Source of the DNA: Lysobacteraceae bacterium | GTDB lineage: Bacteria > Bdellovibrionota > UBA1018 > JAGTJX01 | NCBI GenBank assembly: GCA_023657465.1 | Contig: JAGTJX010000004.1 | Location: 50,053 to 114,052 of the forward strand | Length of the DNA stretch: 64,000 nucleotides | Direction: 5' to 3' | Part shown: in pieces, positions 8,841 to 18,058 of the stretch | Layout of the letters: the number at the start of each line of letters is the position of its first letter | How positions within the stretch are numbered: the first letter of the stretch is position 1 | The notes under the pieces: model-generated | Seen by the model: the letters and a program-made list of their open reading frames with translations, nothing else | Database searches by the model: none | Told to the model about the DNA's origin: nothing | Made by a program: the position numbers and the translations under genes

Positions 8841-11225
8841 ATGATGATCATACTCATTCTCTTCTTGGCATTGGGTTTTATTGGCGCACCACTCTATGTA
8901 TGGACGGCAGCAATAGCCGGTCTCTTCTACTACTTAGATGTAACTCAAACCTATTGGATTACATTCGGTGTAATCGTTGCAATATTCAATCTTCCACCAC
9001 TACGCACGATATTTTTCAGTACATTCGTTGCGTGGACATTCAAGAAGCTTCAACTCATGCCGAAGATTTCTCAAACAGAAAGCATCGCGCTTAAAGCAGG
9101 AGATGTTTGGATTGAGAAAGAGTTGTTTTCAGGTAAGCCAAACTTTAAAAGAATCTTAGATCAGAAATATCCAGAGCTCACTGTAGAAGAGCAGTCCTAT
9201 ATTGACGGACCTGTTGAACGCTTGTGTGCGATGATTAATGATTTTGAAATTTGGAGAACTCGCAAGATTCCTGATGAAGTGTTTAACTTCATGAAGAAAG
9301 AAAAAATCTTTGGGATGATCATACCAAAAGAATACGGCGGACTGGGATTCTCGGCACTCGCTCACAGCGAAGTGATTCTTAAGCTTTCATCGCGCTCGAT
9401 GCCCATCACTGTTACCGCAATGGTTCCTAATTCATTAGGCCCCGCAGAGCTGCTTGTTCATTACGGAACAGACGAACAAAAGAAAAAATTACTACCTAGA
9501 CTAGCAACGGGAGAAGAGATTCCTTGCTTCGCTCTCACTGAGCCAGGTGCGGGTTCTGATGCAGGATCCATTCAAGCTTCGGGACATGTGTTCAAAGACT
9601 CAAGTGGCCAAGTCATGTTGAGACTTAATTGGAACAAGCGCTGGATCACTCTTGCTGCTCAAAGTACGATTTTAGGTCTCGCGTTCCGTCTCTATGATCC
9701 AGAAAATTTATTAGGAAAAGGAAAAGATCCTGGCATCACTTGCGCTCTCATTCCTTCCCATACTCCAGGCATCACTGCAGATCGTAGACACGATCCAATG
9801 TACATTCCGTTTGTAAACTCTCCTACGCAAGGTCATGACGTCATCGTACCACTCGATGTAATCATCGGTGGACCTGACAGAGTAGGCGAAGGTTGGTCGA
9901 TGCTCATGGATTGTTTGGGTGCAGGTCGGGGAATCTCACTTCCCGCTCAAGCTGCAGGAGTCGTAAAGTACGCTACTCGCGTTTCATCAGCGCATTCAGT
10001 AGTACGTAAGCAATTCGGTATGTCGATTGGACAATTCGAAGGTGTGTCTGAGAAGTTAGGTAAGATGGGTGGATACTCCTATCTCGTTGAAGCAGCTCGT
10101 CTCTATACTGTAGGAGCACTCGACTCAAATACAAAGCCTCCGATCGTAACTGCGATTATGAAACACTATTCTACTGAGATCGGTAGAACCGCGATCAATT
10201 ACGCAATGGATGTTGTTGCGGGTGCTGCTGTTGTTGTAGGTCCAAGAAACTTACTTGCACATGCTTATATTGCTACTCCTGTATCGATCACAGTTGAAGG
10301 AGCGAACATTCTCACTCGTACTCTCATGATCTTCGGTCAGGGTGCACTCCGTGCTCACCCCTATGCGTTTGCTGAGATGGATTCTCTTGAGCGTGGAGAC
10401 ATGCGCGGCTTCGACCGTGCATTCACAGGTCACATGGGTCACATCATTAGAAATATGCTTCGTTGGTTGCTGCTTTCACTTTCTCGTGGATGGCTCACCA
10501 TTTCTCCACGCATGGGTGTGACAGCTCTCTATTATAGGAAGCTTGCATGGGCATCTGCTACTTACGCATTCTTGGTTGATTTCTTCATGATCAGTCTGGG
10601 TGCGAAATTGAAAGCAAAGGGCAAGATCACAGGACGCATGGCGGACATCATTGGATGGATGTATCTTGCGACCGCCACACTTCGTAGATTCGAAGCAGAA
10701 GGTCGCAAGAAGGAAGATGAACCATTCTTAAGATGGGCAATGGATCAATCCTTCTATGAGATTCAAGTAGCACTCGATGGACTTTTCGCTTCGGTTGAGA
10801 TTCCATTGATTGGGTTTATTTTCACAGGTCCCATTAGATGGTTACACGCTCTGAATCCAATCGGTCGTCCGACATCGGATGCGCTTGAGCTCAAAATCTC
10901 TCAGCTCATTCAGACTCCAGGAGCACAGCGTGATCGCATTACTGGACGTATCTTCATTCCTAAAAATAAGGATGAGTACTTCCGTAAGTTAGAAGACGCG
11001 TTCCAACTGAATTACACTTGCTTGGGTACAGAGAAGAAAGTTAAATCAGCAGTACGTTCTGGAAAGCTCAAGAAGAAACCGATGAAAGAGTTGCTTGCAG
11101 ATGCTCTCTCTAGTGGTGTGATCACGAAGCAAGAGTTTGATGATCTTGCACGCATAGAAGAGATCCGCAACGATGTGATTCAAGTTGACTCGTTCTCTCA
11201 AGAAGAATACGTAAAGCGTACTTAA
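8841..11225 (+). CDS. fadE: acyl-CoA dehydrogenase, FadE-type with N-terminal membrane segment
   Basis: ALTEPGAGSDAGS motif, length and C-terminal domain; ATG at 8841 preferred over TTG at 8793. Confidence 0.85.
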   Translation: MMIILILFLALGFIGAPLYVWTAAIAGLFYYLDVTQTYWITFGVIVAIFNLPPLRTIFFSTFVAWTFKKLQLMPKISQTESIALKAGDVWIEKELFSGKPNFKRILDQKYPELTVEEQSYIDGPVERLCAMINDFEIWRTRKIPDEVFNFMKKEKIFGMIIPKEYGGLGFSALAHSEVILKLSSRSMPITVTAMVPNSLGPAELLVHYGTDEQKKKLLPRLATGEEIPCFALTEPGAGSDAGSIQASGHVFKDSSGQVMLRLNWNKRWITLAAQSTILGLAFRLYDPENLLGKGKDPGITCALIPSHTPGITADRRHDPMYIPFVNSPTQGHDVIVPLDVIIGGPDRVGEGWSMLMDCLGAGRGISLPAQAAGVVKYATRVSSAHSVVRKQFGMSIGQFEGVSEKLGKMGGYSYLVEAARLYTVGALDSNTKPPIVTAIMKHYSTEIGRTAINYAMDVVAGAAVVVGPRNLLAHAYIATPVSITVEGANILTRTLMIFGQGALRAHPYAFAEMDSLERGDMRGFDRAFTGHMGHIIRNMLRWLLLSLSRGWLTISPRMGVTALYYRKLAWASATYAFLVDFFMISLGAKLKAKGKITGRMADIIGWMYLATATLRRFEAEGRKKEDEPFLRWAMDQSFYEIQVALDGLFASVEIPLIGFIFTGPIRWLHALNPIGRPTSDALELKISQLIQTPGAQRDRITGRIFIPKNKDEYFRKLEDAFQLNYTCLGTEKKVKSAVRSGKLKKKPMKELLADALSSGVITKQEFDDLARIEEIRNDVIQVDSFSQEEYVKRT

Positions 11226-16067: not shown

Positions 16068-16097
16068 TTGCGATGTTCGGTTTTTGTTCGGTATAGT
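16068..16097 (+). promoter_or_regulatory. lexA promoter with embedded LexA-box candidate GTTCGGTTTTTGTTC (16075-16089)
   Basis: TTGCGA (16068-16073), N18, TATAGT (16092-16097); spacer contains GTTC-N7-GTTC. Confidence 0.7.
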
Positions 16098-16105
16098 CTA
16101 AGTAT

Positions 16106-16747
16106 ATGAGTTTCCTCCAACAACCCACACCACGGCAGAAGGCGATATTAGACTTCATCAAGGAGTTTCAGCGTGAGCAAGGATTCCCGCCTTCTCGCCG
16201 TGAAATTGCAACCGGCGTAGGACTGAGTTCCGTAGCTACCGTGCAAGAGCATGTCGAGGCTTTGGAGAAGAAGGGTTTACTGAAGTTAAGAAGCGAGATG
16301 AACCGTGGAATTGAAGCGATGCCAGATCCCGAACACGAAAAAAACGATAGAGGAGAGGCTAGAGCTCTTCCGCTCGTGGGTCAAGTCGCAGCCGGCATTC
16401 CCATTGAAGCGATCAACGCACAAGAGTTAGTCGATGTACCTAACTTCATGCTGAAGAAGGGTGGAGGGGAATACTTCGTTCTGAAGGTGAAGGGCTGGTC
16501 GATGATTGAAGATGGGATCTTCGATCAAGATTACGTGGTCATTAAGAAGCAGTCGACCGCTCAGAACGGAGACACTGTGGTGGCTCTCATTAATAACGAA
16601 GCAACGATCAAGCGTTATCAGAAGAAGCAGGGAGTTGTGGAGCTTCATCCCGCTAATCCCGAGTTCAAGACAATTGTAGTGAATGGGGAACAGGAATTCA
16701 AAATCGAAGGCGTACTCGCCGGAATCATGAGGAGATACGGAAAATGA
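16106..16747 (+). CDS. lexA: LexA repressor
   Basis: N-terminal wHTH, AG cleavage site in LVGQVAAGIP, catalytic Ser in GWSMIEDGI and Lys in NNEATIKRY. Confidence 0.95.
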   Translation: MSFLQQPTPRQKAILDFIKEFQREQGFPPSRREIATGVGLSSVATVQEHVEALEKKGLLKLRSEMNRGIEAMPDPEHEKNDRGEARALPLVGQVAAGIPIEAINAQELVDVPNFMLKKGGGEYFVLKVKGWSMIEDGIFDQDYVVIKKQSTAQNGDTVVALINNEATIKRYQKKQGVVELHPANPEFKTIVVNGEQEFKIEGVLAGIMRRYGK

Positions 16748-16758
16748 TGATAGGGACA

Positions 16759-17259
16759 ATGAAGTCGTTATTTCAGTCTGTGAATTTGAAACATGAGCCA
16801 GAGTTATATCTAGGGCCTAGATTATTCGAGGGCGTGCCTGTGGGATCTGTCGTCGGAGTTTCTGGCGATGGAGGACGGGAATGGATTCTAGAGTTTATCA
16901 AGATGAATGAGAATTGTGATGCCGCTTGGCTGGAGGATGTGATGGACGTGTTGCCGACCGCGCTCAAATCACGGAATCTTAACTTAGACCGCATTTCATT
17001 CTTAGAGAGCAATGAGAACTGGAATCAGGCATTAGGACATGTCTTGAGATCGGATCATTTCGATTTGATTGTTCTGCCACTGGAATGGGTGAATGACCTA
17101 AAGGATCGTAAGGCTTGGTCTAGGTTCTTGGGGTGGGTAAAAGGGACAGGGATTACTGTGTTTCTGGTGTCGGAGTATCCCGAGAAGTCAGCCTCAGTTC
17201 CAATGCAGATTCATACGTGGTTCAAAGAGAAGCGGATGGTCGCCAGCAGACTGAGATAA
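16759..17259 (+). CDS. ImuA/SulA-like protein in operon with lexA
   Basis: Overlapping coupling to lexA; size and degenerate RecA-like GVSGDGGREW; start could be 16744. Confidence 0.5.
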   Translation: MKSLFQSVNLKHEPELYLGPRLFEGVPVGSVVGVSGDGGREWILEFIKMNENCDAAWLEDVMDVLPTALKSRNLNLDRISFLESNENWNQALGHVLRSDHFDLIVLPLEWVNDLKDRKAWSRFLGWVKGTGITVFLVSEYPEKSASVPMQIHTWFKEKRMVASRLR

Positions 17260-17330
17260 ACAAGCCATATGTAATAAATATCAGGTGAGTTGTGATTTGG
17301 TTCTGCCCAGCATATTTGAGTCGCGTTGGT

Positions 17331-18058
17331 ATGGGGATACTGATTTCAGCATTATTTTTTTAATTCCATCGCTAGTTTCGGCGCAGTCATGGGATTTTAC
17401 TCCTTCAGACTATCAGGCATTGGTTACTAGCGGTGGAACACTCCGTTTTGAGAAGGATAGCGATTGGTTTCCAATCCCTCTTCAAGAGAATCTTCTGACA
17501 GTGCTCAAGCATGTCTTAGATCCTTCGCTCACACCCTCTAGTACTGCTGGAGTGAATGTTAAAGATTTTTATCACGGTCATTGGGCATGTGAAAAATCTG
17601 ATACGCTCAAACCACTTCTCTTTGGTGAGAGTAATATTTTTCAATTACAGGATCCGTTCTTTCTTAAGCATGGTTAAAACTGGTGGACTTCTGTGACTGA
17701 AGAGAATCTCAAACAATATACAGAAGCAGTCGTTGAGACAGAGTCTTATTACAGTGAAATTGCGAAGAGAGTTCTTAGTGAAAAGCTGTGCGAGAAGATG
17801 GTGGTTATTTATCATACGTTTGAAGCTTCAGGACCTTCAAGGTTAATGCCGGGTGATGCGAGAAGGAATTTTATTGTCCCGTTTGGTAAGGCACCTATTC
17901 ACTTTCAGACTAGAGATATTAACTCGGCCAGTGGTTGGGAAGAAGATCACACGGAGGTATTTCAGTTCTCATTCTTAATTGATGAGAACGGAGTTGTGCA
18001 TGCGAGCACGGGATCGACGAGTGAACTTTCGCGTGTTACTGGGCGGCCTGAGAACTAG
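17331..18058 (+). pseudogene. disrupted secreted protein gene (one frameshift, one in-frame TAA)
   Basis: Inserting one T in the T7 run (17355-17361) joins MGILISALFF to LIPSLVSAQSWDFTPSD; in-frame TAA 17675-17677 separates two same-frame ORFs. Confidence 0.7.

Follow-up and report, generated by a model that had tools for sequence, protein, structure and literature searches.

The direct repeat GTTCGG-N5-GTTCGG in the lexA promoter is in all likelihood the operator for the LexA encoded in this genome, and would belong to a direct-repeat system of the Bdellovibrionota rather than to a transferred alphaproteobacterial system. From the sequence, a small SOS regulon with this repeat as its LexA operator is the best reading. 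The genome itself groups with Bdellovibrionota, in line with an earlier note on the same 64,000-nucleotide stretch of DNA (the window), which had found it non-alphaproteobacterial in appearance. That note had also located the box where autorepression of lexA is expected; with the same box at umuDC and in relatives, a role as the autorepression operator is predicted and very probable.

Read directly, the region before lexA has the layout TTGCGA-T-GTTCGG-TTTTT-GTTCGG-TATAGT-CTAAGTAT-ATG. The 18-bp spacer between TTGCGA and TATAGT is filled by GTTCGGTTTTTGTTCGG (16075-16091), which bears out the arrangement GTTCGG-TTTTT-GTTCGG described in the earlier note. A sigma-70 scan of the region returned this promoter as its sole result. 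In all lexA promoters of the order with the TTCG box (type A; the TACG box is type B), the GTTCGG of the second half-site is directly followed by TA. The lexA start codon (16106-16108) is safe because the conserved TPRQK has no other start codon before it. It lies 8 nt after the -10 hexamer, not 9 nt as previously stated. This distance is 6-12 nt in almost every lexA promoter of the order (L037-L066), with 8 nt at lexA and 6 nt at umuDC in this genome and 9 nt in G018; the median in other phyla exceeds 30 nt. Given this proximity across the order, a leaderless mRNA is likely, and the lexA mRNA here is probably leaderless; the earlier note had suggested that it may be nearly so. The short distance points to leaderless lexA mRNAs order-wide, those of other phyla mostly having longer leaders.

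Features of the lexA promoter region and downstream genes (window positions)
Feature	Positions	Strand	Basis
-35-like hexamer TTGCGA	16068-16073	+	Sequence; promoter scan 9/12 with 18-bp spacer; TTG kept here in type-A relatives' lexA promoters
LexA half-site 1 (predicted), GTTCGG	16075-16080	+	Same 17-mer before umuDC; TTCG core in 11/11 type-A lexA promoters of the order
TTTTT between half-sites	16081-16085	+	Sequence
LexA half-site 2 (predicted), GTTCGG, 11 bp after half-site 1	16086-16091	+	umuDC 17-mer; TTCG core in 11/11 type-A promoters
-10 hexamer TATAGT	16092-16097	+	Sequence; promoter scan; TANNNT here in every type-A lexA promoter of the order
lexA, LexA/S24 repressor, 213 aa	16106-16747	+	TIGR00498, PF01726, PF00717, alignment
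imuA-like gene	16744-17259	+	41.8 bits against profile of relatives' box-controlled ImuA-like proteins

The LexA protein scored 195.8 bits against TIGR00498 (cut-off 110.95) and also matched PF01726 and PF00717, so that both the DNA-binding and the S24 peptidase domains are present. The A96-G97 cleavage site, S132 and K169 are invariant in the alignment, which provides the Ala-Gly site and the Ser/Lys dyad. The recognition helix lies around residues 42-53 (SSVATVQEHVEAL). No second lexA exists in the 2.83-Mb assembly. The imuA-like gene overlaps the lexA stop codon (ATGA) and is therefore probably co-transcribed, with the same box in control; it has no Pfam or NCBIfam match of its own. Neither imuB nor dnaE2 was found after lexA within the window. 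Two ORFs of 130 and 121 aa follow the imuA-like gene (17285-18058) and matched no Pfam family.

Across the genome, the full 17-mer was found twice, against 0.0003 copies expected, and both copies lie in SOS promoters (lexA and umuDC). The sequence TGTTCGGTTTTTGTTCGG has exactly two occurrences, the second before the umuD-umuC pair. The block common to the two promoters, TGTTCGGTTTTTGTTCGGTATAGT, comprises 24 bp including the -10 hexamer (expectation 4e-8). The genome-wide scan for GTTC-N7-GTTC suggested in the earlier note thus singles out lexA and umuDC when the full 17-mer is used, but the bare pattern is not enriched. Its 5 copies in the window are ordinary (2.84 +/- 1.57 in shuffles), its 81 copies in the genome compare with 151 for the reversed pattern, and most of the copies inspected singly lie inside genes. 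The bare count was rejected as a test of the regulon, being below its reversed control. Genome-wide, no site with one to three mismatches to the 17-mer stands before a recognisable SOS gene, and no box precedes recA, recN or dinB (the second Y-family polymerase) of this genome. The palindromes TTAC-N3-GTAA, GAAC-N4-GTTC and CTGT-N8-ACAG have no match in the window. On the question raised in the earlier note, whether the motif is missing from other SOS promoters, an identical box is found before umuDC here and before imuA-imuB-dnaE2 and recN in relatives.

The umuDC box (L014 1501-1620; G000:C2 about 9945-10065) separates umuDC from a divergent SRAP gene of the YedK/HMCES family (PF02586, ATG at 1601). 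With a TATAAT just 4 nt upstream of its ATG, this SRAP gene may or may not be under the control of the box. In G021, too, a box is flanked by an SRAP gene and an imuA-like gene.

Relatives were found in genome contigs with the LexA alignment as query; a single LexA protein as query found none. Those of the same order include G014 (CAMCGZ010000014.1, Bdellovibrio sp.), G026 (JAIXQO010000001.1, Proteobacteria bacterium) and G031 (CAIOKW010000140.1, Oligoflexia bacterium). The exact box GTTCGNNNTTTGTTCGGTA is present in 12 of the 55 genomes of the order, namely this genome, ten of genus g5 (family f5) and G026 (family f2). The remaining 357 of the 369 genomes in the phylum sample have no exact copy, and one-mismatch matches there are no commoner than the reversed control. 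Within the box-bearing relatives of the order, the box stands before lexA, before an operon encoding ImuA-like, ImuB-like and DnaE2 proteins (DnaE2, 1210 bits, cut-off 939; ImuA, 31.6 bits, below cut-off) and before recN. The mepA (M74) sites of relatives were dismissed as targets, being located within the part of the gene that encodes the signal peptide or, in G021, within the gene in antisense orientation. The genome G020 (L104, L116; 93% complete) has exact TTCG boxes before genes for an HNH protein and an ImuB-like protein and no LexA match, owing to either an assembly gap or true loss.

Most other lexA genes of the order carry a sister box, CTTACG-N5-CTTACG (TTACG-N6-TTACG), which shares the 11-bp period and again lies between -35 and -10. 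No genome has boxes of both types, save for one weak match. In relatives within the order, type B boxes stand before imuA, imuB and dnaE2; the targets are therefore shared though the address differs. Further lexA operator types were seen in L058 and L062 (f7) and in L064-L066 (f2): TGTACG-N5-TGTAC with the helix SRSTAQKY, and a TATACCATAC motif with the helix VGTVQDH.

The box type follows residue 44 of the recognition helix. Among the aligned LexA proteins of relatives and named public genomes, which span phyla, glycine at residue 44 accompanies TACG (35:0) and alanine accompanies TTCG (31:0); after shuffling, 1.1% of the upstream regions give a box hit. No exact box occurs in the stretch examined of 8 A-type and 11 G-type lexA genes, in some because the true start is uncertain. 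Other helix residues vary jointly with residue 44: the helix reads SVATVQEH in this LexA and SLGTVQNY in its TACG-type relatives. The tree contains two well-supported independent switches of residue 44 (four in the best tree), too few for a phylogenetic significance test, so in our view the association, though strong, does not yet amount to a demonstrated code. The lexA genes of Patescibacteria with serine at position 44 (L159, L201, L204, L205, L212) have GTTCT-N6-GTTCT direct repeats, and Collinsella (L295), also with serine there, has the palindrome GAAC-N4-GTTC. The changes in LexA408 sit in the LexA recognition helix. In E. coli, LexA408 reads a changed operator (PMC8222386), and Asn41, which aligns to residue 44, contacts the operator via a bridging water (PMC5999292).

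The two domains of this LexA have different nearest relatives. With the helix included, the N-domain is closest to that of G026 (58.7%, against 47.6% for the best TACG-type protein), and the C-domain is closest to those of TACG-type order relatives (64.2%, against 51.6% for the best TTCG-type protein). In the N-domain tree, which likewise includes the helix, this LexA groups with TTCG-type proteins of several phyla (100/99), and its grouping with TACG-type order relatives is rejected (p-AU 0.0003). The C-domain tree places it among Bdellovibrionota proteins, within the TACG-type order relatives, and the nearest named LexA by score is L147 (Bdellovibrionota bacterium). An N-domain like the TTCG type on a C-domain like the TACG type suggests a swap of the N-terminal domain, which is the favoured, if unproven, reading of the mosaic. 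It is less likely than not, in our judgement, that the TTCG-type LexA of the order instead diverged in place from a TACG-type ancestor by point changes, the C-domains of f5 and G026 later evolving faster. The branches of f5 and G026 are indeed long, and the AU test does not reject a single group of all A-type C-domains of the order (p-AU 0.47, or 0.24 once A-type rows from other phyla are included). Against divergence in place stand the N-domain tree and the finding that, with the helix left out, the N-domain is still nearer to type A (mean 49.2% vs 42.5%), by a gap that shrinks.

The earlier note had taken the direct repeat as a sign of a different or independently acquired specificity. A different specificity holds; acquisition from Alphaproteobacteria does not. 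Lateral gain of lexA and its box from Alphaproteobacteria would account for the shared formula GTTC-N7-GTTC and has a published precedent in Acidobacterium capsulatum (Mazon 2006, as cited in PMC7739468), but we consider it very improbable here. The N-domain is only about 30% identical to four alphaproteobacterial LexA proteins (16-20 of 63 residues, 25-32%), and the recognition helix, LASKSGIHRLITAL here and LSSVATVQEHVEAL there, shares 4-5 of 14 residues. The LexA phylogeny for which the note had called likewise speaks against such a gain, the C-domain tree separating this LexA from the alphaproteobacterial lineage. Moreover, the box is longer (GTTCG-N6-GTTCGGTANNNT), and most order relatives carry the sister direct repeat. 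Finally, the bare pattern's chance frequency and largely intragenic copies would suit a fortuitous repeat with no regulatory role, but the identical block at umuDC and the retention of the box at exactly the same place in another family's lexA promoters leave this reading next to no probability.

Taking the box as the operator of the resident LexA, we infer the following mechanism. The half-sites abut the -35 and -10 elements and, set one helical turn apart, face the same side of the DNA, so that LexA bound there would block RNA polymerase at lexA-imuA and umuDC. Once DNA is damaged, RecA would prompt LexA to cleave itself, and translesion synthesis would be released. The GTTCGG half-site probably differs from the TTACG of most order relatives because the recognition helix differs. 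We propose, tentatively and with rather less than even confidence, that in 11-bp direct-repeat LexA operators the second base of the TNCG core is dictated by the helix residue that corresponds to E. coli Asn41 (Gly/TACG, Ala/TTCG), and that in one Bdellovibrionota order an N-domain swap, along with rewritten operators at the same small set of genes, gave a different SOS address. Helix and half-site would thus have changed, with spacing, promoter placement and target genes kept.

The steps of LexA operator change are seldom visible. Here, one order contains two types that differ by one core base, share their targets and go with corresponding helix differences, and the co-change of protein and DNA is therefore directly testable. 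GTTC-N7-GTTC does not by itself mark alphaproteobacterial origin. LexA operators have changed repeatedly in evolution, with 17 motifs reported (PMC8565304), and direct-repeat motifs evolved more than once, also outside Alphaproteobacteria (PMC7739468; PMC8565304); a direct-repeat box outside that class is thus of a kind already known.

The motifs given in the earlier note are correct: GTTC-N7-GTTC is the alphaproteobacterial SOS box, and TTAC-N3-GTAA is the Bdellovibrio LexA motif (PMC3323433). The alphaproteobacterial box is, like the present one, a direct repeat of 11-bp period with a GTTC core (here at 16075-16089). In contrast to it, the core here extends to GTTCGG and abuts the -10 hexamer, and the LexA helices are unrelated (SKSGIHR there, SVATVQE here). 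Bdellovibrio bacteriovorus belongs to the same phylum, and its LexA, published as not controlling canonical SOS genes, is comparable with the small regulon here; its motif is a palindrome, unlike the direct repeat in the window. For Patescibacteria, direct-repeat LexA boxes have been described (Sanchez-Osuna 2017, as cited in PMC7739468). Patescibacteria-type lexA promoters (L166, L167, L181) have nearly the same box, TTCG-N7-TTCG between -35 and -10 (for example, TTTCGGTTTTTGTTCGGTA in L166), and a related LexA helix (S-x-A-T), but their C-terminal domain is of a different lineage and lexA usually starts 20 nt or more after the -10, compared with 6-12 nt in Bdellovibrionota. The Balneolaeota motif TTACACATATTTTWTACATA is an independently evolved, EMSA-tested direct repeat (PMC7739468) with a half-site that differs from the one here. 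As far as the literature searched shows, three things are new: the occurrence of the box in this order of Bdellovibrionota, its exchange at shared target genes with a sister box differing by one base, and the tie between box type and residue 44.
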